This document shows, one piece after another, positions 10,404-62,753 of a DNA stretch of 64,000 nt. Within the stretch, counting starts at the first letter, position 1; every line of letters begins with the position of its first letter. The DNA comes from Branchiostoma floridae (Eukaryota > Chordata > Leptocardii > Amphioxiformes > Branchiostomatidae). Below the pieces are notes generated by a model that saw nothing but the letters and a program-made list of their open reading frames with translations, was not told the origin of the DNA and made no database searches. The position numbers and the translations under genes are program-made. The stretch is taken from assembly GCF_000003815.2 (NCBI RefSeq), contig NC_049997.1:14110067-14174066 (forward strand). Reading direction: 5' to 3'.

Positions 10404-11095
10404 ATCCTATGGAGCCAACAAAGAAACCATTGGCCACCAACGTATACATGAATGTGTCATGCAGACCGTCTTCAACGGGTTCGGGGTTTCCTGTGAGAAA
10501 CTGTGGATAGCAATCTGGCCTTTTCTTGGCTTCTGGTGGTTCTTGTTCTGTAGTATTATGCAACTGGTTTGTCTGTGGAGAGCAAGAGAGGACAGCGGTG
10601 GTCATAATGAGACAATGGTTAATGCCACATGGTACGGTGGGGATGTATACTACATCCACCACATACAAAACGCATCACTTGCTAACGGCACTTGGTGGTG
10701 GATACATTGTCATCAGCCGTACAAAGTGGAGAAAACTATTTCTTATTCGCTTATCATCGGCCTCTTTAAATTCATGTCAGGTATACTGATTATCCGATTG
10801 CGCTACCAGATTAACTGGGATGAAATACTAAAGGATAAGATTAAGCAGAATGCAGTTTATGACAAACGGTATTTATTGGCCCTGTACGTAATTCTATGGG
10901 CCAGCGCCCTCACGCTAAACCATAGTCTGAAATGTGCCTCCTGCGATCATCTCTTTGCCTTACGGTAGAAGATTAGGTATTTTTCTCATCACAAGTACGA
11001 GGTACCACACTACGTTTGCTCATTTGTTTCACTGTCGTTCTATTCTATAACCTACGTGCCATGCATCGTTCTTCCGCTGCTCGTACGCAGCCGTA
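10404..11095 (+). pseudogene. Truncated third copy of the gene A/B membrane protein
   Basis: After an acceptor identical in context to those of A and B (TTTTTAAATCCAG), the exon matches gene B closely. It starts MQTVFNGFGVSCEKLW and runs through the third hydrophobic segment. A TGG-to-TAG change then stops it at 10966-10968. Homology continues to about 11095, covering part of segment 4, before ending abruptly. The region coding for segments 5-9 is missing. The upstream-frame TGA found in A and B is TGC here, so the ATGA overlap is lost. An in-frame deletion also shortens the leader. Upstream homology reaches back to about 10025, so a 1-kb block was copied. It is almost certainly non-functional as a full receptor; a short truncated product of about 175 residues is conceivable. 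Confidence 0.8.
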
Positions 11096-17909: not shown

Positions 17910-20900
17910 ATGGGGAGTTTTGGAGAGCAGATGTTGGTGGTTTTGCTCCTGCTGTTTCTACCTCAAGACTCGTCGTCAGTGTTCTTGAACTTCAAGAAAG
18001 GAGTGGACTACAAGTACCGGATCGACACAGAGTCTACGTTAGCGAAGGTAGACACTCCGTTCAACGTAGGGGCCCAGGTAAGTCTGGAATTGTGAATACG
18101 TCAGAAGATATTAGATATATCTCAGAATGAATCATATGTTGCACCTAAAGGTAGTGTTAACATCTGTGATGTAAAACATACTGCTAGTTTGAGTCCAAAA
18201 GTACACTTTTTGGGGGACGGCCCGCTCGCAAAATCAGTCATTGCACCCACTCCACGAGTGTGATCATATCAAATCCGTTACCAGTTTTAAGGAAAATACA
18301 AAAGCAATGTGCTACTATTATTATTTTACTAATACATTTTCCGAAAACTATGGGTGTATTTCAAGGTCAGAAAATATGACCTAATGATATAACACACACT
18401 ACTAACATTTCTAAAACAACGGATACTAGTATATGATCAAGGGACATTTCGGCAATTTTCTTTCGAGACCTACTGACGTAATCAATCATGGTGCTCAACC
18501 CATGAATGTACGGTCATGACAAACGGTATATCATAATGAATAAGTCATTAAAAAAGCTTTCCAGTGAGTTGAATTGATTGATAGAGATGATCGATCGAAA
18601 TTATGTTTCCGATTTTGTTGGGTCTGAGTTCATATCGCAACTTATCATATGCACTCTGTCTTCTGGAATAGTCTACCAGTTAGTACTTACTTGCAGATAT
18701 GATGCTTATGGGTTGCTTGTGATCATTATGAATAAAGGAAATACAGAAATAAGCCCTATCAACCCACACGTTAAAAAGATAAAGAAGGATGACTGTTAAA
18801 TTTTACACTATATGTATGAACGGATTCTCCGATAAAAAATATTTTGATTTTTTTCGATGAGCATTTTCAAAATCATAAAATCATATTTTCTGACCTTGAA
18901 ATACACCCATAGTTTTCGGAAAATGTATTAGTAAAATAATAATAGTAGCACATGGCTGTAATAAGATTTAGACACTGGATACATTCCTGTTCCTCCAGGT
19001 GAGTTTCCAGCATGTGGAAGACACGGAGACGGGGCAGGTGTGTCTGCTCACGGTCCACAGTATGATCTGGCACCATGGGACGGAGTCAGGTAGGGGTAAA
19101 ACATTTACTACTATGACTGAAACACTAGAAACGTACATTAGATTTGGGTCTTTCCTTTAGCATGACGTCCATTTTGCTAACTACCAGTATCTCGCTAACT
19201 ACCGGTACCAGAGGATATAGCAACAAAGTAAAACGAAGTAAAGAAAGAAACTCTGTTGCAAACTCTTGGATAGCTTTTGTGAATATACAATATTTACAAA
19301 CATGTTTCGACTGTAAGACCCTTTCTGTGTACCTAACGCTTAAAGTGACCACGAACTGATTTTAAGACAACTCATTGTGTGCCTATGAAGACCTATCAAG
19401 AACATTGACATATTAAGGTTCCCGATCAACAACAAAAACTCAGGCCATATATCGTTTAAATACACATTGGGGTTCAAAAATTGTTTTACCCTACATGCCA
19501 GTAGTACAGCAGTCTTAAATATGATACTAATTAACAGCTACAAATCAAGCAGAAGTCCAGTACGATACATTCTGACATTTCTATTCTGACATTTTTTTGC
19601 TCTGCAGCTATTGCCACCCAGCACTATGACTTCTCCCAATGGTAAGCCATCATATTTGAAGATAAGATATCTTTAAGTCTTCTTTAATCGTTCTTTCCGG
19701 CGACTTCTCTAGGAATAGGATAATTAAATACACGTATATGACCTCCGTCGGTCAATATCGGCCATGGTTTATACAGATACATAAAGACAATTGCTAAATA
19801 GGACGAAAACTTTGATCCCAGACTTGTCTAGAACCTTGACTTACTTGACTTAATCCTCTTTGCCCCTTCTGGAGCACAGGGCCTCGGTGAGATGCCTCCT
19901 AGAACCTAATGTCTAAAATAATAATTGCGAGTAAAGATATAACATTAATTTGAACGTATATTACTTTTTATAACGTTGCTGTCTACTACAGATATCATTG
20001 TGATGGTGTCAATATAAGCTATACAACTAGATTATGCTGCCAGAGTGTATTCTGTTATATCATTTGGTGTCTTATTGAGTTGATAATAAAGAAATAAATA
20101 TTTATTCCAGGTTCTCGTTTGAGATCTCTGGTCGAGGTGAGATCACCCGGGTGTGGTACCCGCCACAGGAAGTGATAGAAGTCATTAACATCAAGAAGGG
20201 AATCGTCAGCTTCTTAGCTGCCAAACTGCATCACAACCACGAGGTAGGTATAAGTCCTGTATGTGTGTCAGGTTAGAGACTGCCGTGATAGAATCGCCAA
20301 TACTACCGGTAGAAACCCCGATCGGGGTCAGTGATTTCAAAGATATACCCTTTAAAAGACAACTTTTGGACTTCGAGAATGGCATTATTCCATGTATGAT
20401 CTTGGCCTATTGAATACGGATTTTAGTATATACATACGTTTCGGTGACAAATAAATTAAACGTTGAAACTTTGCTTTAGAAGTTAAGAGTTTAGTTTTAA
20501 CGTTTAGTTGTGATTATTAGTGTTCGTTCAGATTCTGTAGGAAAATATATATCTCAATGCGAAACGTGTTATAGTCTTTTACTGTAAACATGTGAGCGAC
20601 AAACGATAGAGTATGTGGAGAAGGACAACCTGAAGCCAACCGTTCATACTTACGCCACATCTTCAGAAAAGTCGCTGGATGGAGCCAACACACAACAAAC
20701 ATGTTTCGCCGTGTGGCTTTCTCAGTGTTATGGGCTCGAAATGTGAGGGACAAACGATAGTTAAGGAATTTCCATTGCTGTTTCTACTTCTATGTATGCT
20801 TCCAACAACTATGAAAATACACCCCCATTTCTATATCGTCTCAATTATGCATTCTCAAGTTCCATCTTTTTCTATCGTTGACTAAAATGTCTCGTATAAC

Positions 20901-23900
20901 CGTGACGTCTTAAATTGTTCTTAGTTGTTTGACTCTTCTCTTGCCGTCTTACCCCGTCCCAGGTGGGCCGGCCAAACGACGACAAGTGGAACTACGTCAC
21001 CAACGAAACGGGACACGAAGGTGAGTAACATTTCTACATACCGCATGTTGGCCTTGTGGTTACATGGCGTTTGAAACAGGAATATATGCTTTCAAAAAGC
21101 ATGCAAACATATGAATGAATGAAGACCTTTATTGTACATAAATACCCACTGGGTTCAGTAAAAATACACATACAACGTGCATTGAGTGTCGGTTTCGTTC
21201 AAATTTTTCACGGGAGGCCTGTGTAAATTATTCGTGACCGTGTGTGTCAACTGAAGAATGCTACTTTTGTTAACGTTACATATACTCTGACATTTTGGTG
21301 TTCATGTGTCATCAGATGTTTACGTTTGTTGACTCAAAATCAGGTTATAAAGCATAACAAATAAAAACACATTCCTATCCTATCCTAATGGAAAAAGGTA
21401 ATACATTAGATGATAAGTACGTAATCGGAGGATTTCCATTAAGCATCTTTTTGATGTGATATCAGTGAAGAAAATGCGGGCTTTTAGAATTTTTTTTCAA
21501 TTATACACAAAAGGTTTTTAGAAAACCGTTCTTTTTCTCTACATCTCAACGGAGTTCGTCGAACGACCTGTCAAATCTTCGGTCGCTCAGAGGTCACAAA
21601 CTCTCGTAGAAGGGGATATAAATGTTATGCTGTCCATGTTTTTGGTATGAACTTGTTACTAATTATGCTGCATAAACTAATTGTATTAGGACACGCTTGA
21701 TAACTGCATTGGCATAGGTTGCAGTATCGGGGATGTCTTGGAACTGTCTTATAACAAGTCTTAGATTCCATGTACTCGTTTAAAGAAAACCACATATACT
21801 TCGTTGATTCTACATATTGCACCCTATGCGACGCAATGGCTTATGGTTAAAATTTCATTGACGTCATCACATTACCATGGCACCAGAATAGACCACCCCA
21901 TATATGGTTTCAGAGTCTGGGATTATTGTATGTCTTACAACATGTTATGAACATTATGAATAGGATATTATTACCATTCCATTATGTGAAGAAATCGCTG
22001 ACGCTTACACTGACTGGTTTTACGTTACGCTATGCTGTAAGTGGCCGCCATAGAAATGCATAGCATGAAGGACTAGTCGTATTTCCTATTGTACTAACTT
22101 CTACTAGTTTAAAGACAACCCATGTGATGAACTGAACCGCTCATACATGGTTCGCCATGCCTCTTACTCTTCCATCTAGGTGACAGATGTACACCTTTTA
22201 TCTGTAAACAATTGGGGATGTATCTTTCCATGCAAAGTATGTGAGCACACTTTGCAATGGTACTTGTCAGATGCAAGTCTTTCGTCAGTTGAAACGGTCA
22301 TGTTTAAAGTTTGGGGATACAAGAGCTTTATTTAGGCTTCTATGTGTTGCCTAACCACATAAACGAGATATCAAAGACGGAAGTTCCGCTGCAGTACCAT
22401 AGAGGGCGTAAATACTTTTTAAAGCCTTATCAAGACCTATCAAATATCATAACAATCCATCCAGGCGTTCTCTAGTTATCTTGCGGACAGACATTGCCCG
22501 TACAAACAAACGGAAGTCACTACAAAACCTCGGTTATACGGAGGTAACAACACGAATCTTGTTCCAATGAGGCTTAGCATTAAGAAGTTTAAACATAGGG
22601 ATGTATCGGTTCGAGAAATGCAAAGAATTAGAGTCTGGGTTCAGCAGAATAGGAGAAGGGATCTTGTAGCTCCGATTAGATTCTTCAAGCAGAGGTTAAG
22701 ACTAGGACATAGCACTGGCCGGGGTTTCTTAGTAACTTCTTATTTAGACCTATGTCACATTTCCAAACAGGGGCCCGACCGGGCAGCTTTCGGGAACGAA
22801 AATTATGATATAAAGACACTAAACTACATGAGACGTAACGAGAATAGTGGTGGGCATTATTTGTGTATATTTTTACATTTCTATTCTTCGTTTCCACAAA
22901 CAGCCCGCCCGGAGCTCGGTTTGGATATGTTACGTTAGCCTTAAGGGAGACAGTCATAAGAAATCCCGGCCTAATTTACCCCTCACCGTAACCTCTGCTT
23001 GGAGTTAGATAGTTTGTCCCACGTTTTGGGCCACGTGAAAGCCAACCCCACGCCTGAGACACGTGAGTTATAGCTGCCCCTCCCCGCGTTAGGAAATGTA
23101 AACAGATCAGTTCACTCGGTTTGTCACCTGCACACACAAGAAAAATATATCGGGTTCTCCCCAGGGACTTGTTTTCCTCATGCGCTGACACTCGCATCCG
23201 GCTGGCAATGATAGAAGGGCATCAACATAAATTTTCAGGTCACAGAACTGTTGAAAGAAGCCAGACAGTACCTAGTACCACACTACAGTCTTTTCTCCCT
23301 ACATTCGTATTATATTGCAGTCACAATTGTTGTAGTCGTCCTGCGATTTCGATGACGTAAAAATTCCAAGCATGCTGTTACAAAACCAACCGCTCACACG
23401 GACAGCACTTTCCAAAACAAGATAGGACTGGATTTTGTACGACAAATGTACGACCATCCCCAGAGTAGTTTCTGTTTTCCATCGTACGACGGTCGTATGA
23501 CGACTTTGAACGAGTTCTAACCGCATCATTAGCAATGGTATTGGTAAAACATTTAAGACCCTATTAAGATTAGTACTGGATATATTTACTTGGCCCTAGT
23601 TCTGGGTGTCTGTGATGGTGTCAGCTATATGAGCTATATGGTTTTAGACGAGCGAAGCCTAGAACTGGCTTTTTTAAAGTTAGCAGGTTAAAACCAAATT
23701 TATTGACGTCCTCATTTTCCTTAACTCATCCGCTTTGCCAATCAGGCTCCAGGTAGATGCAAGTACCCGGCCCAGTCTAGATTTAGCAGGTTAAAACATT
23801 GATGACGTCCTCAATAATTCGCTTTGGTAATCGGGCTCCAGGTAGATGCAAGCTTCGTACCCAGTCTCGGCGTTTTATGGGTGATTTTGCAATATTTAGT

Positions 23901-26900: not shown

Positions 26901-29900
26901 CAGGTACGTGCGAAGACATAGGAAGAAACTCTATAGTCCATCCCATAAGAAGAAGTGGACCCTTAAGTCCATTCACTGTTTCCCGCACTTTGGTACGTTC
27001 ATGTCTGTATGAAGGATTCTTCCTCTGGACATTTTCCTTCGAGTGAGAATTGTCGTAGTATTTGCAATCTTAAGACTCGTGATAACTTGACTATCGTTAA
27101 ACAATTGACAACCGTGCAGAGCTCAAGAATGGGGCCTTGCACATGCGGCAACATAAGTAAGAAACACTTAGTACTAAGTACGTCAACCACATGGCTATAT
27201 GATAAGTCATAAATTCTTCAGTCTATAACCAAATTCACTAGGTCAAGAAACTCTTTTAGTGTCACTGACGAAAGGTAGTGGATTCTGCCTGAAACGTCTG
27301 ACCGTTTGCAAAATTATATCCAGTTGCTTGAGCATTGCCATTTGTGGTATCCTACTAACTACCCTTTCTAATGAAAACCTTTTAAGTTATACCTTATTTT
27401 ACACGTCATTTCAGCACCGCACATGGACTCCGCAAGGCCCACAGTTGAACTTGACTTACGCACAAGATCTCATCCGCCAAGACGTGGTGTGTCTGAGGAA
27501 ACTGGTCATTAAGAGAGGTGAGCGACTTAAAGTCATTAAAGCTACAGTGGTATCTCACTGCACTTGGGGCACCGGTGCGGCACTGCAGGATTCGTTCATT
27601 GCGACACTGTTGTGTTATTTTCGCCAATTTTCATAAATTAGATGATTCGCAATACGTAAAAGCATGACTTAGAAGACAGCAAAACACAAGAGATGGAAGA
27701 AATTCGTTCTCTATCTCTGAAATTCGTTGAGTAATCTTTTGAACCCCGCAGTGCCGCAACGGTGACCCAAGTGCAGTGAGATACCACCTTTACCTGTTGG
27801 CGATAGAACTTGTAAATACTATACGTCAAACATCGTGGAAGACGAAATACATTTTATTTTAAACAGTCCGTTTTAAGATCACGAAAGAAAAAGGAACCTT
27901 TTACGAGGCCACTAAATTCCACTCTAGAATCTCTGCGTTTACATACAATAAGAATAAGCCTTTACATTTCTATAGAAAGTATTTGATAGTTGTTATATTG
28001 ATATGTTTGTGAAACTAGCTGCTTTGTAATACTGAAGTACCGTTTGGGAAAGTGTCACTGACATTGGATGGTGTCTGAAACGTTTGACAGTTTCCAAAAT
28101 CATATCCAGTTGCTTTTGGCGTACCGAATTTTTGACTTTTCTGAATATACCACAGCGCTATTAGGGAAGCAAGTAATCTTATGTATTTTTTTTAAAATCT
28201 CCACCTAGCTCACCCCAAGAAAGACGTCCTGCCTTGCTACACAAGCCTGAAGAACACACTCAGCAAACTGAGCAACGAGGACCTGCTCACTGTCGTGGAC
28301 TCTTACTTCAACCAGCCAAACTTAGCGTAAGTACTGTCTTTATCATCTAAAAATAATGTTTTAAATGTTATTCAGAGATGATATAGAAATGGGGGCGTTA
28401 AAGGCACGAAATGTAAGATTTGGACGATATTTATATGTGTTTTCTGGTTATCTCTTTGCGTTTAAAGTTGAATAAAATCCATCACCTTGCTCATTCAGGT
28501 AGTCATCTTCCAATGTGCGGTACAGTTGTCAGTTAATTCATTTGTTTACAAAGCTATTTATTGGTACCATCAAAAAAATAAAGGTACTCTTTGTCGGTCA
28601 CTTTTGCGCTGTTTGTAGTTGCAAGTAACATGAAATGGTGGAAACGTTTTAAAAAGTATTTATGATAACATGGAGATTTTTCTATCAATAAGATTTTCAT
28701 TTTTCCTTAAAAAGCTTACATTGATTGCGTGTTTTTGAGTTGTGTTTTTTTCGTACTACGAAAAGTACTTAAACAAAGTGCTAACTTGAGCACTCCCTGT
28801 CGCAACATTCTCATCCTTATTTTCCCTGTGTCTTCTTTCAAACATTCTATATTCAGAAAACACAAAGCAGTATTCGACAACACATATATCCAGGTCGTAC
28901 TAACCAAAAATCTAAATACAAACAAAGGTGTTTACTAAGAAGGCAAAGCTAGTCCTATGTATACAACATGCTTCTGTGTTGTCCTTGTCAGCACATTTTT
29001 AGATCAGAGGTATCACGTATGCTTATTTTCTTTGTCATGGCTTGCAGCACTAGCAAGACGACCTCTTGCCAAGGGGCTATGTAAACAGTGTAATTATACC
29101 CAGAAGAACAATGCTGTATTCATAACCTGACGACTTTGTGACCAAAACTCTCTATAGCAAAGACAACTTGACATATAACACGCCTTAGGCTGAATGGTGT
29201 GTAAGGATACGATATGCCTGTATACACATTCATTACAACCTACAGTGTTTTACTTGACATGTTAGGTTCAGTGGAAGTTCACGAACGGTACCTGGTAGTG
29301 TAAGGTAGATGTAACAGTGCGCGTGCATGTGGGATATAGGTTAATTATACACCTTTCGGCATCATATATCAATGTTAACGTTTACAACAACAGCGATGAA
29401 AAAGAGACAATTAAATGACCTGCAGGCCGAGTTGAGGATGTCGAAAGTTCAAAGAAGCAACAGGCACACAAGAACTACAGCTAGAATATATCACTTAATC
29501 GCGACTTATAAGCTTTATCGAGACTCTTTCTTTTCAAATAGATCTTTGCCTACTACAAAGTAGAGATTTCCAGCCTTAAACTAATGTTTAACACTATCTC
29601 CGACTGTAACAGTACTATTAAACTAATACATTGTTTAACACCATCTCCGACTTTAACAGTACTAGTATGTAGCTCCCATTACGAAAATGCTGCATGTAGA
29701 TTTAGTATAATGTCCACACTGTCTAACACAGAACAAAGGAATGAAGTAATCTTCCTCTTTTATGCACACCATTAATAACATAGTCCTCCGCAGTATAATA
29801 CACGTGTGTCGTAGTGACCACTTCTATCCTCACTCGTATTTACATGTATTTACTTCATTCTTAATATTGTACATTGTATTTTGATCATTGCAGTACGAAG

Positions 29901-44200: not shown

Positions 44201-44437
44201 ATTCAATACAATACAATGTTAAACTAGAAAGGTAATATTTGCAAGCAAATACAGAATGTTACCTTCACATGGTTTGGTCTAGCATTTCTACCTGGAAGGG
44301 TAAACTGATTAAGTTGCAGATGTTGACACAGGATAAGTCAAGACATGCAAGAAGGTACAAATAAATTTTGATGATTATTTTCACTCCGCGTACCGTAGGT
44401 ACGCTTCGAGTGAAAATATTGTTTTCATACGGTTTCT

Positions 44438-44468
<31 letters not shown>

Positions 44469-53400: not shown

Positions 53401-56400
53401 TCCTACATTTGCATATTATAGGAATACCGCAAGACATCAAACTCACAGAAGGCGTCTACATGATTCTCACAATCAACAAAACGGCAACAGATTTCATCGT
53501 GGACTTTGGCGTGAGAATTTGTGAGCCGCATGAGTGCATCATTGAGGGCAACTTCATCCGACACCTGGTGGTGCCCATCCCCATCTGCAACAAGATAAGA
53601 TTTGATGCTGCATGTAAGGAGAAGCCTCTAATAGATACTGTAAAATGCATTTAATATTGCAGGGATTTAATTTCGCGGTAGCGGGAAAAAGGACTGTTTG
53701 CGGTGGGTTTAAGTTCGCAGTAGCATCATGCACTGTAGTCTCTTACTGCCATGGGAAAATGTTCGCGGTGGTTTTAATTCGCAGTCAATTGGCAACATGG
53801 ACATTTCTGCATTTACAGTAGTTCAGTCACATTTTTACTAAATCAGACAGTTTTATATGATTGTTCATTATGTTTTGGAAATGACGAAAAAAATACTGAA
53901 TGTACGATGTGTGCCTGGAGGAAGAACCTATTAATGGATACAGTTCTTGATGATTGTTTTAGCAGCTGATAATACCAGTAACACTACATTGTTGCTAAAG
54001 ACACAATTCCTTGGGCACTTTATCATAAATAACCACACAAAATTCACGATGACAGCATGTCCAGAACATGAGATATCATAACCAGAAGTTTTGCTGCAGC
54101 ACTTTAGAAAGCCGCTAGGAGGCCTATCATCTAACTTGACCTTTGTTTTTCTGCCTCCTTCTCACCAAACAAATATTATCAACCTCTTGTTAAAGGTAAA
54201 AAAATTAATAAGAGACCATGATAACGAAAAAGCCTGAAAACTTACAACAAAGACTATAAAGTGCTTTAAGATATATATGTTATATGTGCATAGTTTGGCA
54301 ACGAAATTAAGAAGTTGTTGTATTTTCTTTTCGTTTCAAGCAATTGACCGGTTCATCCAACAAGCAGGATCAAACATGGCTTCAGGACTTGTGGATCTCA
54401 TCGTTGAAAATGCAGGACTTCAAGACATCTTCTACCCAGCTGGGTACGTCGTTGCTCTTCCCAAAAGGACTCTGCCAGGTAAAGTAACAGATTCTTTTAA
54501 ATGCAACTCCCCTATTATATAATATTCTCAGGCCAGAAAATTATGTTCATTCCATCAACTCTTTACAGATATCAACTTGTTGTAAGACATTGCATGATTT
54601 TGTCAAAAAGCTCCGCAAATTTCCTAGTACATGTGCAACAAAATTTTTAAGCATACATCAAACACTATCTTTTAGATAAACTTGTTTTCTACTTCATGAA
54701 GCCTAAACACATGAGCTACAGTACTGTGACACTTTATGAAACAAGCTCTAAAACTACATGTACATCTCAAAACCCAAGACATACAATGTGTGTAGTCATG
54801 TCATCACTTCCTGCTTGTCTACAACATTGGAACACAGCCAAACCAAACATCCAATTCTCCAAGTCCGATAATCCTATTACACCATTTCTGCCTTACATCC
54901 TGGTACTGGTAGGCAGTGCCCAACAGCAGACACAAGCAAGGACGAACTAACAAACATTGCACACCAGCTGATTGCCTTTAATCTGATTTTCATGGGGGTA
55001 ATCCAATTCAGAACCTGTATATCCTCATTCAGTAGTTTTCTATTATATCAGGAACAAGATTATAATTAGCTCTTCAAAGTGAGGTACAGTGTAAACTGTT
55101 TATGAAACCTTTTCCATCATGTACCATTCCACAGGTAACTGTTCCCTGGCCCCCAGCTTCGACTGGCTGCCTAAGGGTTTCAGCTGCCAGGTCAACGCCT
55201 TCTGCCTGGGGATAGACTGTATCATGAACATGAACCTGATGAACTACACCAATGTCGCATCCTTGGCCTATGTCAATCTGGATTTCTGTAACTACACCTT
55301 CAACATTGGACTTGGGAACTGGAGCTATCATCTGGCCCTGTTCACCTATCCCTGGGGAAAAGTGCAGGTGCGATGACAATCTTTACATTGAACTTCTGTA
55401 CCTTCTGGAAAATAGAGATATTGTTTCTGGTTTGTTTCTTTGTTTGTCTTGGTGTGATGGAAATAAAGTTTGTTACCACTCTGCAGGGTGGAAAATTAGT
55501 CAAAAAACAAATCTTAGAATAAAAAAATAAAAAAATTTATAATAGCTACTGACAATTGGTCGATATCAAGATAGACAAATGTGCGTTTGTAGCACATGGA
55601 AAAAATAGTTTTGTTGCAGTTGTGCCTACGAAAGTTCTGTACTTTCTTTAAACGAAATTGCACTATGAAAAGTGAAGTTCAACATAAAACCACCATGAAA
55701 GTTTCTACATTTACAGTACGTCATCCATATGGAATAAAAAGTCACATTTAAAATTCTTTCATACCCATCTATTAATAACTAGCACAACTACAGTTTTTTC
55801 TGAATCTTTTTAATCAAATGAGAAAATAATTAAATGAATAAATGAAAAGTTAAAATTCCTGTTAAGCCCATGACGAAACCTTCAAAGAAACCATGACTGC
55901 TAATGTACATGTCCCTTAATTTTTCTGACAGAAACAAAATCTTTTTATCTATCTGTAGGAAAAGATCCTGGGAGAGGATGCCTTCCACTTGCACTATTCC
56001 ATTGCCAAGAATGATGTGAAGAAAGTGTTTGTGGTGAACTTCAATGTGACACTCTGTATCGAAGGGAGGTGCTCCGACAGCAACCCTCTGATGAGGAACA
56101 TGGAGATCCCACAGCCTTTCTGTAACACCAATCTGTCCGCAACCATATCAAGTAAGGTTTAGTCTAAGTATTGTCACTGTCATATTAGTGGCAAGGCATT
56201 GTTGTAGTCTAGGTTTAAATTAAATCTGCTGGCATAGATATAGCGGGGACAGTGGTTGTGGCTATTTTGGTGCACTTTGATATAAACATCAGAATGATAC
56301 ATTAACTGTTTCAGTAGAAGCCGCTTAATTGCACGGCCAATTTGTCAGTGAATTTCATGCAATTATCCGGCTGGTACAATAATGCAAAGTTATCTACCTG

Positions 56401-59400
56401 GACCGCACCTGTTTGGGATTTTGGTATTCTGTGCAGTTAACAGAAGTGTGCGTTAATCCGTTGTGCAATGAACTGGCTTATACTGTATAAGAGAATCATT
56501 CTGATTCTTACCATTTAAATTTAAAGGTGATTATAAACTAGAATCCATACAGGAAAAAATACAGAAGTTGAAAACGTAGGCTGTCTGCTGTAAGGTTGAT
56601 TGTGCTTGTATCTTATATCAATCATGACATCAAGTCATCATTATACAATGTACAATTAATATGTGTTAATCCTGAATACTTCCTTTGACAGATGTGTCTG
56701 TAAGTGGACTACAGCATTACGTCGAGCAGCAGGGATATGTGGTGGGCCAAGTTCTGGCTGAGACCAGTAAAAACGCCCTTCTACAGATCCTGGGGATAGA
56801 CGACCTTGTGGAGGATCGCACCTGTCCCCGACCAGTGGTACTGCAGAGTGGGTGGTCAGGACTCGACAGTAAGTTGGTCAGGACTCGACAGTAAGTTGGT
56901 CAGGACTCGACAGTAAGTTGGTCAGGACTCGACAGTAAGTTGGTCAGGACTCGACAGTAAGTTGGTCAGGACTCGACAGTAAGTTGGTCAGGACTCGACA
57001 GTAAGTTGGTCAGGACTCGACAGTAAGTTGGTCAGGACTCGACAGTAAGTTGGTCAGGACTCGACAGTAAGTTGGTCAGGACTCGACAGTAAGTTGGTCA
57101 GGACTCGACAGTAAGTTGGTCAGGACTCGACAGTAAGTTGGTCAGGACTCGACAGTAAGTTGGTCAGGACTCGACAGTAAGTTGGTCAGGACTCGACAGT
57201 AAGTTCAAAATGGTCAGGACTTCACAGTATTAGTTGGTCAGGACTTGACAGTAAGTTGGTCAGGACTCGACAGTAAGTTGGTCAGGACTCGACAGTAAGT
57301 TGGTCAGGACTCGACAGTAAGTTGGTCAGGACTCGACAGTAAGTTCAAAATGGTCAGGACTTCACAGTATTAGTTGGTCAGGACTTGACAGTAAATTCAA
57401 AATGGCCAGGACTTCACAGTATTAGTTGGTCAGGACTTGACAGTAAGTTGGTCAGGACTTCACAGTATTAGTTGGTCAGGACTTGACAGTAAGTTGGCCA
57501 GGACTCGACAGAAAGACAGAAGAGAATGAACATTTAAGAAGAAAATGATAAACGTCTTCAGAATGACTGGAATTAGAAACACAGTTACTGTTCCAAGAAC
57601 TTAAACTGGAGTCACTGTGGCAGTTTGACACTAGGAACATTGGCAGAGTTCATTTGTAGAAGTAGTACAGTAAAGATTATGTAACACCCCAAACATTTGC
57701 TTGGAGGTCACTTTCAGTACCTGAGCACCAAGATCAAGCACCACTCTGTTTAATTTTCTTACTTTAAATCATTTAATGTAGTTAAAATTTCAATTGCGAT
57801 GAGAGTTTTATACTGAGGGTAATAGTAGTTGACAGCCTCAAGCAAACCGTACACACAACATCTTCAGAAAAGACATTGCAGCCACATAGTTCCCATGCAG
57901 AACTACTTTATTCAAGCTCACTTCCAGAGGGATTTATTCTGATTTATCATTTTCTATGATTACAGGATGTACGGACATGAATGCCCCAACGTTGCCCAAC
58001 AACATGACCTGCACCGTCCAGTCCAACTGTCTGGGCCTGACCTGCTGTATGGACGTCAACCTGAAACTGGTCAACATCACCCTGAAGGCTTCCGCTGTGC
58101 TGGACATGTGTAACTACACTCTGTCTCTAACACTGGGGAAGAGGGTCATCAACAAGGTGTTATTTGTCTACAACTGGGGTAAGACATTTTAGTCGTTTGA
58201 TTTAAAATGATTAGTACTATCAATGATGTTTCCTATCAATGATGATATTTTAGATCATTTTCCATAGACTAGTTTAAAATTACTGTACAAGTTTAGTGTG
58301 ATGTTTTTCCTTTTCATCCATTAGACCGCTTGCAGTCATTTGTGCATTTAGCCTCCAGGGATTAACATGCAATAAAGATTATTATTGTTTAAAATTAAAT
58401 CATTGCTTTTTTAAATTAGGTACAAAATAAGATTCAAAATATTCAAAGTTCATAATTTTAAAAGTTCATCTGTGTTTGCCAGTGACATCAGGTCAGCAAA
58501 CATAACTCTTGTCACAGGCATTGCTGACATGTCCCAAGTTTAGATTATTATAAACAAACATTCCGTTTTCTAGTATGATTTTTTAAAAGAACAGCTATTC
58601 AATTTGTACTATCTCTTGTTAACAGGAACTAGAGAAGAAATTCCCATTGGTGATGCATTCAAGATCTATTACTACATCAAGAAAAATGATGCAGAGAAGA
58701 AGTTCCTTGTAACCGTGGAGATAGCGCTGATCATTGACGGTGATGTGGAGGCTGTGTACACACTTCTGAAGGACAGCAAGATCCCACAGCTCCTCTGTGA
58801 TCCTCAGGCTACTCTGGCCTTCATCGGTAAGTGCCCATTTCCCCTCAAAAACTAAGACTTAAATACAAGTTACATTTTTGATAAAAGTTAGACATCCAGG
58901 TAATAAGATAGGCCAAAAAGCAGTTTCTCAAGCAACTGGATATGATTTTGGTCGGATGTTTCAAACAACCATCTGGTGTCTTTCATCAGTGACACTGATG
59001 TTTTTTGTTTATTTTCGCATTATTGCATTATCATGCGAAGCTCTGTCATATAGCAGACACATACAGGAACACTTTTATATTGTGATTCTAATGTATGACT
59101 GAAGGATACACAATGCCCATAGCTAATATCTTTGACACCAACCAACAAAACACAAGGACCTGCTAGCCTGCTGTCTGCTTAAAATATAGTATGCTCTCCT
59201 TTTAGGAGTGATTGATTACCATGAAACACATTCAAGACAAACACAATGAAATCACAGTCTCTAATTGGTGAGCTAAGGTATCCTCTAAAGCAAACATTAG
59301 AAACCCCTGACTTGAGGGAAAAAAGGGAGGACACACATACACTTTGTAGGAGACTTTTCCTGGTTGTGTTTCTCCTGTGTTTCCCTTGAGTTTTGACTAT

Positions 59401-62400
59401 TGAACTGAGGTTTGGAACTGTAAGTTAATGTATCCAGCACATTACATAAGGAACTGGCGCATCCCTGTCTTGTATTCAGCAGTAAGGGGCAGCATGACCC
59501 CAACTGTGCTGTCATACACCATGATATCACTCTACTACAGTGACAAAGCTTGTGGTGCTTTTCTCTTGACAGATGGTGCGAGGTCAGTTGCTGGCTATCT
59601 AGAAGCCCTGAACATCTCTGAGGCCACCCAGGTGACCAGTACAGCCATCTCTGGACTCCTGAGTTACAATGGGATCAGTGATGTGTTCGACCTGGCCACA
59701 AGCTACCTGCCTCCCATCAGCTCTGTCGTGTTCATGGGTTGGATAGATGTCCCACTAGATGGTAAGAGGGAAAGGTTACATGTAGTAAAACCTTCTCAGT
59801 GCTACCATCCCCATAATGACGATAGATCTGATTCCTAAAAACTACAAGTTGACAGTTATCTTTTTTTAAGCTTAAAAGCAACTGTCCACTGTGTAATGTT
59901 GTTGATTAATCCATGGAAAGGCAAAAGATCATTCTTTTAGTAACTCGATTATCAAGACAGGTGCTGTTCTGCCCACAATTTTGTTGTTGTTGGGACTTAA
60001 GGTTTAAAATCCTACTTTTATTAGAAATACTGTCTTAAAGACAGTTGATAACAATTCCTCTTAAAGACAGTTGGTAATATCTATATATAAATAAGGAGAA
60101 TTTGGACATCTATACCTATCAAAACTTTACAAGTGACAACCTGTACAAGAACCCCCTCAATGGTCAATGCCATCACTGTTTGACAGTCTTTTAGATAATT
60201 TTCCCCATTTACACACCGTCAGGCATTAAGAATCCTGTCTACCTCAACCACCTGTTCACATAGATCAGATTGTATTGCTCCCCTGAGTGGTCTTCTTAGG
60301 CAGATTGGACTGTACTACTAGTATCTTCTAGCATTCCACAACTGTTAATTAATATGACTGTATATTTCATTCCAGCCTGTCCTGATGTGACCTGGCCAGA
60401 GCTGGCTACAGGTGTGGTATGTGAGGTGACCAGCAGCACCTGCACAGGTGTCACCTGTTACAGGGAGTTTGACCTGAGCCTGGAGTCCTTCGAATCAAAG
60501 ACGTGGATGGACTTCGACCCATGCGACTACCAACTGACCATTGGGCTGGGTTTAAAAACTGTCAGATACTCCGTGCTACCTTCAAACACCTGGAATTATA
60601 CCTGGGGTAAGTCAGGACAAGATAGTGATGCTGCAGTGTTTTTTATGCATAGTATTAGCAAATCAAAATTGTCCCTATGATGATGAAATACACTTAAGTT
60701 GAAATGTGAAAGTGGGTTCTAGATAGTGAAATATTTGCAGTGGTTTTGTGGTTTGTTTGAAATTTTTGCAGTGAAAGGTTCAAAATTATCTTTTTTTTGG
60801 CATTGGTATGGCTGTCTCAACCTTGAACTTATAATACTGTGAATGCCTCTTTTCCCTGTTCACTGTGATAATAAATTCCCATAAAATGAAAGCAATCTTG
60901 TGGTATTTTCTCTTATAAATTTTAACTAGGCTGTATGCCTAGTTTGTAACAAACGGATATCATTGTGTAGTGTATCACTTTGCAAAGCTGAAAAATCAGC
61001 TTCTATATTCTTGATGGATAATGCAATATATTTGACAATGTATAATGTGCAATTTTACCTTTTCTGTCATTCAGGTGAAGTTAAGACCGTCAAGTTTGGG
61101 ACTGTCTTCAACATGACCTTTGCAATTGGCAAGGAAGGAGACGACTTTGTCTTCGACTTCTCCTTGAGATACTGCCAGGATGTCGGACACTGCACCAACA
61201 CCACCTTCTTGAAGAAAACAAAAGTTCCTCAACCCGCCTGTTACAAACAAGATGTGTGGACGCCAACTTCAGGTGGGTAAAACTTGAATTGTAGCCAGGG
61301 TTTAGTTTTGTCAGTAACCAACTGGTGCAAGGGCCAAGTGGGGTAAGTGTTCACCTTGCAATTGGTCTTAAGTCGTCTGATTCCCGACCTAGACTTTGAA
61401 AATGGCATATATGCTGCTTTCCCTACTTAGCACTCAGCATTTGGTAAAGAGTATAATGGTAGTTAAATACACACAGCAGAGCCACTTGCTGTAGTGATTG
61501 CACAAAAGTTGTGTGGCCCAGGGCTACAGAAATGGAGATGGGCACTGCCATATGTACCATCTCAGGTGATGAGGGAAGGAATTTGTTAACCTGCTATAAA
61601 CAGCCAACTTTTGAGCATACAATATTAATTTCTAGTATATCTGTTACAGACTTGGCTTCTTTTTGTGTATCATACCATATGTTGTACAGAAATATCCATT
61701 TATTATAAGTGCATGCATTGTACATCATGTTGATATACTTATAGACTCTATATATCTTGGCGAATTTTATGATTCAGTTTTTCAGTTAAAAATCTCTAAA
61801 AAGAAACGATCGCTTTACCTCCAGGATCTGTGAGCACGGCCATCACCCAGATGAAGCAGGCTGCTGTGATGTCCCCTGTGCTGCCAGGTGTGTTTGTGGA
61901 GGCAGCAGACAGAGCCATGGGAGTGGTGCAGGTGTTCACTGGAGCTACAGACTGTACGGGCAGCACCAGTGGGTGGACTGGGGCAAACAGTAAGTTTTAT
62001 GTCATCTTTACCTTTTAATTGGTAAACTCTGCAACAGACCTGAGTCTCAGATGTGCTCTGTGATGTGGCAGAGATCACTGTCATTCTCGTATAGGACTGT
62101 TAAGCCACAGTCGACGCTTTAGGACTGATATCAATTAGGATTTTACCATGGTCAATATTGACACAAGGAGGCCATTAATATGTATGGTGATAATAGGTAA
62201 TGATCTTTTAGTATTTCCAAGTTTAACCAAATCAGTGGCCATCGCCTTTGAATTCAAATTATAGAATTTATCAGAAGAAATATCATAAACTAATCATAAT
62301 ACATGTATTTTTACCGTAAGCAATGTCATTGCATCTTGTACATGATTGTACAATTCCGAATAATTAACTAATAGTATGAATAATTTTCTTGTTGAATTAA

Positions 62401-62753
62401 ATTGCAAGATTGAAGAACATAATTCATGTGCATGCAAAAAGTTTCAAAACTCAAATCATCATCATCTATGAATAAACACCAATATCATAAATTACAGACT
62501 CACTTTGAATGGCAACACTTTTAAACTGTCTTTCCAGATTGCCCAGCTGCCCTGTTGCCCACCCTCCCAACTGGAGTGGGCTGTACTGCCAGTGATGGCT
62601 GCTACCATGTGACCTGCTGTATGACCCTTGACCTCTGCTCCATCAGACAGGTCAAGCCAAATTTCCATGTGAACTTTGACCCCTGTACCTACATCCTGTC
62701 TGTGGGGATGGGAACATGGACCTCTGAGTTCAACTTGTACCAGTACACTTGGG
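17910..62753 (+). CDS. Large secreted lipid-transfer protein with LECT2-like, SAP and Cys-rich modules (48 exons, partial)
   Basis: Forty-eight exons join in one open frame (7,216 nt, about 2,405 residues), all with GT-AG junctions; the frame is still open at the last exon. Order by residue: signal peptide about 1-23; vitellogenin-type lipid-transfer N domain about 24-595; beta-rich then helical region about 596-990; LECT2/M23-like domain about 1020-1145; basic cleavage site RGRRKR 1204-1209; SAP-like motif about 1284-1316; Cys-rich module 1 about 1318-1498; second SAP motif about 1510-1545; Cys-rich modules 2-6 to the end. The first part places it in the large lipid-transfer protein superfamily (vitellogenin, apolipophorin/apoB, MTP), whose members bind lipid in a helical and beta-sheet cavity and are secreted or ER-resident. 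No von Willebrand D domain or polyserine stretch is seen, so it is not a typical yolk vitellogenin. The 3' end lies beyond the window. Confidence 0.9.
18307..18953. repeat. Perfect 73-bp inverted repeat in intron 1
   Basis: Bases 18307-18379 are the exact reverse complement of 18881-18953, separated by about 500 bp. The arms start ATGTGCTACTATTATTATTT. The right arm ends 45 bp before exon 2. The unit could be a foldback element with 73-bp ends or a local inverted duplication. Perfect identity means it is young or under gene conversion. The interior has no supported gene. Confidence 0.9.
22742..22940. mobile_element. Imperfect inverted-repeat element (probable MITE)
   Basis: The left end has CTATGTCACATTTCCAAAC followed by GGGGCCCGACCGGGC. 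The right end has GCCCGCCCGGAGCTCGG then TTTGGATATGTTACG. These pair imperfectly. The open frames across it are by-products of the palindromic ends. Confidence 0.5.
23684..23872 (+). repeat. Two-copy tandem duplication of about 105 bp
   Basis: Both copies share AGCAGGTTAAAAC, GACGTCCTCA, CGCTTTG and GGCTCCAGGTAGATGCAAG in order. The second copy is slightly shorter. It lies inside intron 5. Confidence 0.75.
25337..25716 (-). repeat. Dispersed repeat, GGCCATGTTGATTTGATT family, inverted copy
   Basis: The right end, read on minus, gives GGCCATGTTGATTTATTCAT then GGATGACATC. Within the same stretch the other orientation carries TTTCGGCCGTCTTACCAAAAG and AATTGTACAAAGCAGCTG, as in the other copies. 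The unit may be a foldback pair. Confidence 0.4.
27549..27785. mobile_element. MITE family 1, copy 3 (intron 9)
   Basis: Inverted ends GGTATCTCACTGCACTTGGG and complement enclose 237 bp; the interior is shared with the copies at 13394 and 15437. It begins only 31 bp after the exon 9 donor (27518). The ends match copy 2 better than copy 1. Confidence 0.85.
30222..30425 (+). repeat. Dispersed repeat, GGCCATGTTGATTTGATT family, copy 3
   Basis: It begins GGCCATGTTGATTTGATTAT, then GGATGATATCC and AATGCAAAGCAACTGCAAAA as in the other copies. It lies in intron 11. Confidence 0.5.
32766..36648 (+). CDS. Exons 16-23: beta-rich then helical middle region
   Basis: Exons are 32766-32944, 33376-33521, 34044-34220, 34668-34826, 35094-35236, 35553-35620, 35952-36103 and 36482-36648 (residues about 595-992). 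Exon 16 carries HSRGKRGLADLFD; RGKR (606-609) is a possible furin-type site just after the lipid-transfer domain. Exons 16-17 are strand-like (SGHLIVDVHDEVFARVHLG). Exons 18-23 are amphipathic helix throughout, with repeated I/V/L-x-x-I spacing and few cysteines (for example ITDLTTKFDNIITKIFDNI). That looks lipid-associating or coiled-coil-like. I cannot match it to a named domain; it does not read like the beta-sheet domains normally found here in vitellogenin. Confidence 0.85.
37094..38772 (+). CDS. Exons 24-26: LECT2/M23-peptidase-like domain
   Basis: Exons are 37094-37274, 37833-37988 and 38599-38772 (residues 992-1162). The core runs GGGCPGGFF, RKGVDLEAAVGDKVYSPFTG, a strand region, DIGTVVTSGCNNHIHFAIKK and GYLDPTKFL. 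This is the lysostaphin-fold pattern as in LECT2: H-x-x-x-D, then V-Y-x-P-F-x-G, then H-x-H, then a D-P-x-x-[YF]-L end. The Asp (1044) and both His of H-x-H (1122, 1124) are kept, but the first metal-binding His is Arg (1040). LECT2 itself is a secreted zinc-binding signalling protein without known peptidase activity, so a binding role is more likely than hydrolysis. Exon borders enclose the domain in phase (2 in, 0 out), so it was not gained as a simple symmetric exon. Confidence 0.8.
38119..38260 (-). repeat. Possible tRNA-derived SINE fragment
   Basis: On minus it reads a box-B-like GGGTTTGAATCCCT followed, about 100 bp later, by AACTTAAAGAACCCACCAC, the conserved tail also seen near 10025 and 25990. 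A box-B plus conserved tail order fits a tRNA-derived SINE. Box A is not clear. Confidence 0.4.
38833..38906. mobile_element. 74-bp TA-flanked palindromic MITE
   Basis: TA-CAGTCAAACCTGTCTATAG at the left and ACAGGTTTGACTG-TA at the right form inverted ends with a TA duplication, as in Tc1/mariner-type insertion. The centre also pairs (GTGGCCACT with GGTGGCCGC). It lies 60 bp after exon 26. Confidence 0.75.
39253..40380 (+). CDS. Exons 27-28: linker with basic furin-type cleavage site
   Basis: Exons are 39253-39415 and 40220-40380 (residues 1163-1270). Exon 27 is rich in K, T, P and G and ends in SSRRGRRKRSA. RRKR then S at 1206-1210 fits the R-x-[KR]-R proprotein-convertase consensus and sits in a flexible, hydrophilic stretch. 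Insect apolipophorin precursors are known to be cut by furin into two chains, so processing here would be consistent with the superfamily. Exon 28 (FPAVNASGPSSLFN...) is a short helical stretch with the look of a small alpha domain, leading into the first SAP motif. Confidence 0.8.
40470..40541 (+). repeat. tRNA-Thr(UGU)-like sequence, probably a SINE head or pseudogene
   Basis: Box A-like TAGCGCAGTGGTT and a perfect box B GGTTCGATCCC are correctly spaced. The anticodon position reads TGT in a TTGTAAT loop. The T stem pairs (CCGGG with CCTGG) and the 3' acceptor strand TGTCGGC is present. The 5' acceptor strand (GCCTTTT) pairs only in its first three bases and the anticodon stem is poor, so a working tRNA is unlikely. 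It lies in intron 28. Confidence 0.45.
41087..41228 (+). CDS. Exon 29: first SAP-like motif
   Basis: Residues about 1271-1318. The core SMTEAQLRMELQLRGQNSTG then RPILVEKMRKSD follows the SAP pattern: a hydrophobic residue before T-x-x-x-L, then L-x-x-R-G-x-x-x-x-G, then L-x-x-R/K-h. SAP motifs are helix-turn-helix DNA-binding elements in nuclear proteins. In a secreted protein the fold more likely serves packing or protein binding. The same exon type precedes Cys-rich module 2 (exon 34). Confidence 0.7.
41336..41554. mobile_element. MITE family 3, copy 1 (intron 29)
   Basis: The left end TTAACACCAATTCACCTTTA and right end GATAAAGGTGAACTAGCGTTA are inverted. GTTTCAAATTGCAACATTTT also pairs within the interior. 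The same ends bound 43132-43804. Confidence 0.75.
41804..51008 (+). CDS. Exons 30-33: Cys-rich module 1
   Basis: Exons are 41804-41895, 42585-42717, 43872-43944 and 50765-51008 (residues 1318-1498). Submodule a is split over exons 30-31: CPFLTLSVP, then C-x5-C-x4-C-C (YCKFSDLCLGLTCCVD), an F-rich strand region and a final FWG. Submodule b covers exons 32 and the start of 33, ending GLCGEKC...APIPVPK. Submodule c (ITAIAQTVVKTAMSDITHMALVALGLPS) is helical. The usual conserved Cys after the DP/D position in a is missing here. In modules 3-6 submodule a is a single exon, so modules 1 and 2 keep an extra intron. The 6.8-kb intron 32 splits this module. Confidence 0.85.
42052..42200 (-). repeat. 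Possible retroelement 3' tail, inverted
   Basis: A duplicated AGAAGAACTTTATT is followed by GCACGACAAATAATATTGTA and GTACAATGTATGGC, matching 11846-11890. Read on minus it has a polyadenylation-like end. It lies in intron 30. Confidence 0.4.
43132..43804. mobile_element. MITE family 3, longer copy (intron 31)
   Basis: It has ends TAACGCTAGTTCACCTTTATC and GATAAAGGTGAACTAATGTTA, with GGGTAAC next to each. The 673-bp length leaves room for an interior that also occurs, inverted, at 48240-48380 (shared GCGCTGCGT, CAAGCGGCAAAC, GATTTTGTGCTACG). The right end is 68 bp before exon 32. Confidence 0.75.
44828..45080 (+). promoter_or_regulatory. Promoter-like block: two CArG boxes, CRE-like and CCAAT boxes
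   Basis: Two perfect CArG boxes, CCATATATGG, lie at 44828-44837 and 44864-44873, each within ACCATATATGGT. They are followed by TGACGTAA (44893-44900), CCAAT (44950-44954), ATTGG (44988-44992), CCAAT (45008-45012), a TA-rich element near 45045-45053, and a donor-like GTAAGTG at 45079. The block is more CpG-rich than its surroundings. It resembles an RNA polymerase II promoter on plus. No clear downstream gene was found, so it may belong to a transposable element. Confidence 0.45.
45888..46797 (+). repeat. Exact 124-bp direct repeat (45888-46011 and 46674-46797)
   Basis: The two copies are identical over 124 bp, from CAAGGAGAGGATAGC to AGAGATATT, and start 786 bp apart. It could reflect a recent local duplication, terminal repeats of a small element, or an assembly artefact. 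It lies within intron 32. Confidence 0.9.
47250..47900 (+). mobile_element. Diverged transposon remnant related to the element near 63 kb
   Basis: It shares with 63220-63545, in order: AAAATCAGCG, a CGACTGGTCGA-like segment, TCTGGTCAGTCGC, TTTTTGTCGTCATTTTCC, CACTTTCAAAATAGTCTCCT and a GAAGTAAAAA block. The ends are not clear and there is no transposase. Two related copies in one gene show a dispersed family. Confidence 0.6.
48240..48400. repeat. Fragment related to the interior of the MITE family 3 long copy
   Basis: Read on minus, it matches 43410-43545: TTCGCGCTGCG, CAAGCGGCAAAC, GTGAGAC, ATTTTGTGCTACG, TTGGTACGCTT, CTCTCTTCAGAAGT. Between it and 50270 (48400-50270) I see no supported gene or repeat. 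Confidence 0.55.
50618..50722 (+). repeat. Possible retroelement 3' tail
   Basis: It ends CAATTGTTGTGCAATAAAGTT, the plus-strand version of the tails at 11846 and 42052. The end lies about 40 bp before exon 33, so part of the exon 33 polypyrimidine region follows the element directly. Confidence 0.45.
51368..51578. mobile_element. MITE family 4, copy 1 (TA-flanked, intron 33)
   Basis: TA-CTGTAAATGCATTTACATT at the left and TTCTGCATTTACAG-TA at the right are inverted ends with a TA target. The interior repeats TTCGCGGT/ACCGCGAA several times. It is 211 bp and ends 59 bp before exon 34. Confidence 0.8.
51638..51779 (+). CDS. Exon 34: second SAP motif
   Basis: Residues about 1498-1546. RLTVGQLTAELKNRSLPTTG then NALVQRLKDSD is a close match to the canonical SAP pattern (L-T-V-x-x-L-x-x-E-L-x-x-R-x-L-x-x-x-G-x-K/N-x-x-L-V-x-R-L). 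It is phase 0 in and phase 1 out, like exon 29, so the two SAP exons are probably duplicates. It separates Cys-rich modules 1 and 2. Confidence 0.8.
52166..54478 (+). CDS. Exons 35-38: Cys-rich module 2
   Basis: Exons are 52166-52249, 52896-53045, 53422-53613 and 54341-54478 (residues about 1546-1734). Submodule a (exons 35-36) has C-x5-C-x4-C-C spanning the intron, DACNFQF and a final YPWG. Submodule b (exon 37) has ICEPHEC and VPIPIC. Submodule c (exon 38) is helical and hydrophobic (FIQQAGSNMASGLVDLIVENAGLQDIF, as shorter pieces). All internal junctions are phase 1, the same as in modules 4 and 5. Confidence 0.85.
53636..53820. mobile_element. MITE family 4, copy 2 (intron 37)
   Basis: Ends TACTGTAAAATGCATTTAAT and TTTCTGCATTTACAGTA match the copy at 51368; the TTCGCGGTAGCGGGAAAA interior is also shared. 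It starts 22 bp after the exon 37 donor. Weaker fragments lie near 55640-55720 and 60690-60860. Confidence 0.8.
55135..56868 (+). CDS. Exons 39-41: Cys-rich module 3
   Basis: Exons are 55135-55367, 55959-56151 and 56692-56868 (residues about 1734-1935). Submodule a, now one exon, has CQVNAFCLGIDC (second Cys of the pair is Ile), DFCNYTF and YPWG. Submodule b has LCIEGRC and IPQPFC. Submodule c has QVLAETSKNALLQILGIDDL and ends QSGWSGLD. Unlike the other modules, the a/b intron is phase 0: the usual donor after TGG-G is mutated and a donor several bases downstream is used. The exon 41 donor is the first unit of a 22-bp minisatellite. Confidence 0.85.
56854..57515 (+). repeat. 22-bp minisatellite built from the exon 41 donor splice site
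   Basis: The unit GGTCAGGACTCGACAGTAAG plus TT contains the last 15 coding bases of exon 41 and its GTAAGT donor. Sixteen uninterrupted units span 56854-57205. About thirteen more, including variants with TTCACAGTATTAG or a CAAAAT insert, extend to 57515. About 23 of the roughly 29 units keep GTAAGT. The first unit is the real exon end, judged by homology with exon 47. Confidence 0.95.
57966..59761 (+). CDS. Exons 42-44: Cys-rich module 4
   Basis: Exons are 57966-58178, 58626-58826 and 59573-59761 (residues about 1935-2136). Submodule a has CTVQSNCLGLTCCMD, LDMCNYTLSLTLG and YNWG. Submodule b has IPIGDAFKIYYYIKK and IPQLLC, but the LC-x-x-x-x-C pair is lost (IIDGDVEAVY). Submodule c has VTSTAISGLLSYNGISDVFDL. 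All three exons are phase 1 at both ends, so each can be duplicated or skipped without changing the frame. Confidence 0.87.
58887..59410 (+). repeat. Two dispersed repeats side by side in intron 43
   Basis: 58887-59000 (CATCCAGGTAATAAGATAGG, AACTGGATATGATTTTGG) belongs to the family at 14745, 27255, 28050 and 51220. 59040-59410 is copy 2 of the repeat at 8740-9140. Their adjacency suggests they may be parts of one larger element whose pieces are seen separately elsewhere. Confidence 0.6.
60376..61989 (+). CDS. Exons 45-47: Cys-rich module 5
   Basis: Exons are 60376-60606, 61075-61272 and 61825-61989 (residues about 2136-2334). Submodule a has CEVTSSTCTGVTCYR (Tyr replaces the second Cys of the pair), FDPCDYQLTIGLG and YTWG. 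Submodule b has YCQDVGHC and VPQPAC. Submodule c has ITQMKQAAVMSPVLPGVFVE and ends TSGWTGAN, matching the QSGWSGLD end of exon 41. All junctions are phase 1. Confidence 0.87.
62538..62753 (+). CDS. Exon 48: submodule a of Cys-rich module 6 (gene continues)
   Basis: It carries CPAALLPTLPTGVGC, then CTASDGCYHVTCCM, FDPCTYILSVGMG and YTWG, with a phase-1 donor (GTGAGT) at 62754. Submodules b and c of this module, and the gene's end, must lie to the right of the window. Confidence 0.87.

Follow-up and report, generated by a model that had tools for sequence, protein, structure and literature searches.

A single gene spanning about 110 kb, with some 133 coding exons, appears to lie in a stretch of chromosome C19 of Branchiostoma floridae. 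We consider it rather likely that its product is a giant membrane protein of the single-pass (type I) kind, about 8,030 residues long, which carries a large-lipid-transfer (LLT) head at its far N-terminal end and binds lipid-bearing or glycan-bearing particles, or matrix, at the cell surface. The analysis shows the coding frame, the domain matches and the order of the parts at ten loci, while lipid binding, cutting of the chain, surface display and the kind of ligand are inferred. From the N terminus, a signal peptide and the lipid-transfer head are followed by amphipathic helices, an M23/LECT2-like domain, a pair of SAP motifs and 14 Cys-rich modules. Next come LamG, a second amphipathic beta segment, PAN, a fibronectin-III-like region, an EGF-like region, a transmembrane segment and a tail. 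The window, i.e. the whole stretch of 64,000 nucleotides that was analysed, contains the first part of this gene. Positions given below are those of the window, or of its scale continued downstream, and features are on the plus strand unless stated otherwise.

Gene model

The exons were chained by a program with general splice matrices. Its codon usage was trained on the open reading frames of the window and on vitellogenin exons of the B. floridae genome, followed by retraining on the program's own exons. The result was a single plus-strand gene with its ATG at 17910 and its last convincing in-window exon at 62538-62753. The first model had 47 exons up to 62753, coding for 2,400 aa with no stops; a forced terminal exon at 63796-63968 was discarded. 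With 120 kb of downstream DNA (12 stretches of 10 kb) in the model, exon 52166-52249 was added, which completes Cys-rich module 2, and exon 14 was shortened, giving a total of 48 exons in the window. An earlier, sequence-only reading of this DNA had described one unbroken frame over 48 exons at 17910-62753, and the independent model arrives at the same start, the same last in-window exon and the same number of exons.

The extended model comprises 133 exons coding for 8,030 residues, with a stop at 127527 (genome position C19:14237593), about 63.5 kb past the end of the window. Its last exon is uncertain, as an alternative donor at 127492 is possible. Up to 127527 most exons have net scores of 3-25 and about ten score less; beyond that position the scores drop to about 2. 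In the longest model, exons 135-168 (130144-183913) scored at noise level and were dropped, as was a 12-nt exon at 66923-66934 with a net score of 0.1.

Over 17.8-127.7 kb the chaining score was 1723 on the gene strand. The reverse strand gave 162.5, and three Markov surrogates gave 2.9, 2.0 and 4.9, all with a codon model that had by then been trained partly on the giant gene and favours its score. The 56 kb behind the gene scored 42.2. The strand, surrogate and flank scores exclude chance as the source of the open frame. The exons look shuffled, given the equal lengths and phases of the two SAP exons (142 nt, phase 0) and the run of phase-1 starts in exons 35-39 and 41-51. It is noted that two open frames of about 160 aa lie inside or overlapping introns (22453-22935, plus; 43585-44052, minus); neither gave a Pfam match at 0.1, and they are probably not genes.

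Lipid-transfer head and amphipathic regions

Exon 1 (17910-18077) contains the start codon, a signal-peptide-like hydrophobic stretch at aa 8-26, identified by hydropathy only, and the beginning of the lipid-transfer N region. Exons 1-9 (17910-27517, aa 1-322) form the N-terminal part of the large-lipid-transfer (Vitellogenin_N) region. The in-window protein was scanned against Pfam in three pieces, and Vitellogenin_N (PF01347) matched with E 1.1e-11 and 44.5 bits against a cut-off of 24, the best stretch being aa 96-182 aligned to profile positions 81-163. The vitellogenin-type lipid-transfer N domain claimed earlier is thus recovered above the family cut-off. Exons 10-16 (28209-32944, aa 322-642) form the helical, HEAT-like part of the region. 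This part has a HEAT_2 match with E 2.5e-5 and 24.9 bits, under the cut-off of 27.7, and includes a furin-type RGKR at aa 593. The helical segment of the paralogue on chromosome C17 matched positions 474-574 of the Vitellogenin_N profile, also under cut-off (E 0.0029). When the lipid-transfer region was compared with PDB sequences, the matches were mostly HEAT-type repeat designs, plus an OTU protein, and lipovitellin and MTP were not among them. Three further Pfam families in the in-window protein, with E values of 0.015 to 0.32, look chance-like. When the genome was searched with the Vitellogenin_N Pfam profile, the window gene was absent among the 50 candidates scored, as each exon contributes too little to the match; a search with the protein listed it.

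A short segment with high beta amphipathicity follows the helical domain in exons 16-17 (32766-33521, about aa 600-690). The beta moment is 0.39 in aa 600-700 and 0.38 in aa 4290-4480, while the five other stretches compared have 0.24-0.31 (with no shuffled control). These two amphipathic beta segments have no recognisable likeness to each other, and neither matches a family. The hydrophobic stretch at aa 656-674 (1.69) lies inside the first of them and is probably not membrane-spanning. Behind it, exons 18-23 (34044-36648, aa 691-979) encode an amphipathic helical region, with an alpha moment of 0.37 in aa 700-990 against 0.18-0.26 in six other stretches, again with no shuffled control. The corresponding helices of the C17 paralogue gave a weak match to ApoLp-III (E 0.026, under cut-off). 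The amphipathic regions behind the head suggest contact with lipid. The Pfam scans listed neither von Willebrand D nor the vitellogenin open-beta-sheet families, aa about 2,400-3,390 having been scanned as modules only, which agrees with the earlier remark that no beta-sheet domains and no von Willebrand D domain follow the head. Since the Pfam families of the lipid-pocket beta sheets were not found, it seems doubtful that the head would carry lipid.

M23-like domain and SAP motifs

Exons 24-26 (37094-38772, aa 979-1149) encode a Peptidase_M23 / LECT2-like domain. The window gene matches Peptidase_M23 with E 2.7e-6 and 27.9 bits, 0.8 under the cut-off of 28.7, and the C17 paralogue passes that cut-off with 36.0 bits. 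A profile search of the genome with PF01551 gave only two weak places, none of them in the window; both are paralogues of the giant gene. In the PDB an M23 peptidase, 9gy1, matched with E 0.039, and LECT2 followed at 0.67-0.70 with unrelated proteins ranked between, none of these matches being significant.

The metal ligands of M23 proteins we take to be the His and Asp of an HxGxD motif (HNGID in PDB 9gy1), with HxH as the second motif. In the window gene the first of these motifs is replaced by RKGVD, so that an arginine lies opposite the His of HNGID in the alignment to 9gy1, while the later HxH is kept, as NHIH. The position of the first metal-binding His is R in the window gene, W at its neighbour on C19 (C19b), S at the C2 locus, where the match is weak (E 0.03), and E or a gap at C17. 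The residue is thus absent at all four readable loci, the sequence at C14b being unreadable there. The Asp of the motif is kept in three of the four. HxH is whole in three of five loci (window gene, C19b and C17) and reads NTIH at C2 and C14b. The absence of the first metal-binding His makes a zinc peptidase unlikely, and the domain is probably a binding module rather than an enzyme. Of the LECT2/M23-like domain described in the sequence-only reading, the M23 part stands with the profile match. The LECT2 label does not, as there is no significant PDB match and the metal site is broken; LECT2 proteins match no better than other M23 proteins, and "LECT2-like" can therefore refer to the fold only.

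Two linker exons lead from this domain to the first SAP motif: exon 27 (39253-39415), with a furin-type site RGRRKR at aa 1191-1196, and exon 28 (40220-40380), which is taken from the exon-chaining model. SAP motif 1 is exon 29 (41087-41228) and SAP motif 2 is exon 34 (51638-51779). Alone, the first scores E 0.0024 with PF02037, under cut-off, and the second 6.1e-8 with 32.6 bits, above cut-off. Together the two stretches reach E 1.6e-9 and 37.6 bits (cut-off 23.9), in line with the two SAP motifs noticed before. Known SAP members bind nucleic acids in the nucleus. The SAP motifs of the giant protein lie between the signal-peptide-like start and the transmembrane segment, on the predicted secretory side.

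Cys-rich modules

A Cys-rich module of about 190 residues occurs in 14 copies between aa 1304 and 4286, as detected with a profile built from the same copies. The copies have a mean column identity of 27% and one invariant Cys. Module 1 (exons 30-33, 41828-51008) scores 142.8 bits with this profile from the same copies and holds a 6.8 kb intron at 43945-50764. The module profile also places module 2 in exons 35-38 (52166-54478), module 3 in exons 39-41 (55135-56868), module 4 in exons 42-44 (57966-59761) and module 5 in exons 45-47 (60376-61989). The first part of module 6 is exon 48 (62538-62753), beyond which the gene runs on out of the window to about 127527. The window therefore has five whole modules and the start of a sixth, and the earlier count of at least six is right; the whole model has 14. 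A single exon of 2,178 nt downstream (79210-81387) encodes about three modules without introns, most other modules spanning several exons; intron loss or retroposition may lie in its past.

All 14 copies were scanned against NCBIfam without a match at 0.1. They matched no curated Pfam family for the module, three unrelated families appearing with one copy each (best 0.0073), and the profile search of the PDB found no relative (best 0.67). For five half-module exons from the window, AlphaFold produced an all-beta model with a pLDDT of 63.6, too weak for a fold search; the modules are probably beta-rich. Similar Cys-rich repeats presumably exist in predicted invertebrate proteins. Naming this module, which has no Pfam or NCBIfam entry and is present at nine loci (at two of them weakly), would make unannotated proteins recognisable.

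From the LamG domain to the predicted membrane anchor

Downstream of the window, three families are above their Pfam cut-offs: Laminin_G_3 (E 3.7e-16), PAN_1 (1.5e-5) and fn3 (1.7e-9 overall, with no single stretch passing alone). Big_9 (E 1.3e-4) and two EGF families (0.024-0.032) are all under their cut-offs. The LamG domain lies inside the eleventh Cys-rich module, the end of which seems to resume at aa 3637-3693 (weak, E 0.0077). It is a single exon of 699 nt at 78269-78967, and a PDB search with it gave nothing useful. Residues about 6,001-7,200 match no Pfam family at 0.1, and "fibronectin-III-like" is in that stretch an assignment by eye, from recurring motifs.

A transmembrane stretch at aa 7808-7826 (hydropathy 2.06, the assignment being by hydropathy only) follows directly behind the EGF-like pair. 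The tail of about 204 residues contains PxxP motifs and one YxxL beside the membrane, and has no NPxY or dileucine motif. Furin-type sites are found at aa 593, 1191-1196, 4028, 7304-7309 and 7466, and the C17 paralogue has REKR at the place of the aa 593 site. These sites suggest that the protein may be cut into chains.

Paralogous loci

B. floridae has 19 chromosomes (PMC12373286). Our search of the genome, 513 Mb in 431 contigs, found ten loci at which the parts of the giant gene lie on one strand and in one order, some loci being without a detectable part. On three chromosomes the genes form pairs of opposite orientation, placed head to head on C19 (the window gene, C19a, from 14127976 to 14237593, plus; C19b from 14094352 down to 13974710, minus) and on C15 (C15a, 17068301 to 17000591, minus; C15b, 17211813 to 17275561, plus), and converging on C14 (C14a, 20969001 to 20988650, plus; C14b, 21095879 to 21062975, minus). 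The other four loci are on C17 (4916775 to 4852251, minus), C18 (8321348 to 8259418, minus), C2 (7864185 to 7891684, plus) and C4 (C4a, 24690279 to 24730370, plus). C4 has in addition, on its plus strand, a place at 23190741-23192051 that matches the C-terminal (membrane-proximal) query only, with 38% identity in the piece through the transmembrane stretch; it is an eleventh gene or a fragment. The DNA between the two giant genes on C19 has two open frames about 520 aa long (window 945-2510, minus; 6273-7826, plus) and a third of 197 aa (10375-10968, plus), all of the same multi-pass-membrane-like family. A Pfam scan of one of them, 6273-7823, gave no match at 0.1.

The LLT region was detected at all ten loci, its match being limited at C14a to the stretch that follows the HEAT region (E 0.0016-0.037) and at C4a to the HEAT part, and the beta/PAN/FN3-like part was likewise detected at all ten. 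The M23-like domain is present at eight of ten (not found at C14a and C4a). The Cys-rich module is present at nine (not found at C4a), with E 0.00102 or better at seven and weak matches at C2 (0.042) and C14a (0.17). The membrane-proximal part was found at seven loci, including the window gene, and not at C2, C14a or C14b. Such absences are weak, since only the best candidates were scored (60 of 566 for the membrane-proximal query, 57 of 113 for beta/PAN/FN3 and 35 of 114 for LLT), and they may reflect short forms, divergence or this scoring.

In the C17 paralogue, which is 48% identical to the window gene, 12 kb were read directly and contain LLT region, helices, M23 domain, linker, SAP motif and module in that order. 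Its SAP exon was found by tblastn only (E 8e-4), the exon-chaining program having skipped it. Exon start phases, compared by eye with those of window exons 15-28, are equal at 13 of 14 positions. The pieces of C19b that were compared have modules 3 to 8, in order, as their best matches, which indicates that the module array is older than the C19 duplication. Differences at the three codon positions are 0.32/0.24/0.51 over 1,033 codons for C19b and 0.42/0.31/0.65 over 286 codons for C17; they show constraint at the protein level.

Alternative explanations

The giant frame could have been merged by exon chaining from two or more neighbouring genes, such as a short lipid-transfer gene, a Cys-module gene and a fibronectin-III/EGF membrane gene. 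Forcing a gene break at any of 11 chosen introns lowered the score by only 10-30 units, which is close to the start/stop penalty, so the gene finder alone cannot exclude a break, and the loci without detectable parts would also fit separate genes. Against such a merger stand the ten loci that have the parts on a single strand and in the same order, the exon start phases kept across the LLT/M23/linker joins in a paralogue as distant as C17, and the head-to-head paralogue C19b, which retains the order from the LLT region to the membrane-proximal part. We regard separate genes as very unlikely. The earlier claim that a lipid-transfer head is fused with M23/LECT2-like, SAP and Cys-rich parts in one gene is upheld by the ten same-strand loci and the phases conserved in C17.

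A single gene would still allow other functions. The sequence-only reading had suggested an extracellular lipid carrier, perhaps with a role in immunity or the matrix, and a strict version of such a carrier would be a secreted carrier like apolipophorin or vitellogenin, in which furin frees a lipid-loaded head and the remainder is a mere precursor. The five furin-type sites, that at aa 593 with its counterpart in C17, and the amphipathic helices speak for it. Nevertheless, the classical lipid-pocket beta-sheet and von Willebrand D families were not found, and the model ends with an EGF-like region, one transmembrane segment and a cytoplasmic tail. This anchor, together with the membrane-proximal part at seven of ten loci, indicates that the product is first of all a membrane protein, of which a soluble form would need proteolytic release; we consider the secreted carrier improbable. 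A better, if still unlikely, candidate is a giant adhesion or matrix/mucus-coat protein whose head has lost lipid transfer and is now another protein-binding domain. It would account for the LamG, PAN, FN3-like and EGF-like domains, the long module array, the lack of lipid-pocket families in the Pfam scans, the modest match of the head to Vitellogenin_N and the inactive-looking M23 domain. It is less easily reconciled with the amphipathic helices and beta segments behind the head, which recur in paralogues.

Proposed mechanism and significance

LLT superfamily members are folded and loaded with lipid in the secretory pathway. For the membrane-anchored giant protein that we prefer, the head would similarly be folded, and perhaps lipid-loaded, in that pathway, and the chain might then be divided by furin-type cuts. 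At the cell surface, a long stalk would display the head along with the LamG, PAN and Cys-rich modules, and these displayed parts could bind lipid-bearing or glycan-bearing particles or the neighbouring matrix. Its function may be the capture of lipoprotein-like particles, the building of a surface coat, or the shedding of a lipid-bearing head. A further step, to which we give somewhat less than an even chance, is that these genes represent a new LLT branch with a permanent cell-surface tether. In this multigene family of ten loci the head would sit at the tip of an ectodomain of about 8,000 residues, largely made of an undescribed Cys-rich domain, so that one molecule would join lipid handling to surface recognition.

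To our knowledge, every large lipid transfer protein described so far is either a soluble carrier or an ER protein. If our proposal is true, a membrane-anchored version at about ten loci in an early chordate widens the roles of the superfamily and offers a test case for a lipoprotein and a cell-surface receptor as one molecule. The locus is presumably covered by automatic gene predictions in public databases. A literature search, of a kind that misses most subscription papers, found no published description of this architecture, and neither vitellogenin nor lipid transfer occurs in the main text of PMC12373286. The lipid-transfer head as such is known; for the tethering, the module array and the gene family, the literature that was searched has no description.

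Comparison with known systems

Like the LECT2/M23 metallopeptidases, the window gene and its C17 paralogue match the M23 profile, and the window gene also has the second motif, as NHIH. The giant protein differs from them in lacking the first metal-binding His at every readable locus, and in having the domain embedded in a giant protein.

Proteins of the LLT superfamily (vitellogenin, apolipoprotein B, apolipophorin II/I and MTP) are about 900-4,600 aa long. The signal-peptide-like start, the Vitellogenin_N match above cut-off, a putative HEAT-like helical part and a furin-type site behind the helical part, in a position that we take to be analogous to that in apolipophorin, are shared with them. 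In contrast, the giant protein has 8,030 aa, many unrelated modules and a transmembrane anchor, and no open-beta-sheet or von Willebrand D family was found in it.

Giant modular cell-surface proteins with FN3/LamG/EGF ectodomains are a known class. The type I layout, the FN3-like stalk, the LamG, PAN and EGF-like domains and the single transmembrane segment of the giant protein are all shared with this class, whereas the lipid-transfer head, the SAP motifs outside the nucleus and the Cys-rich module, for which neither Pfam nor NCBIfam has an entry, set it apart.
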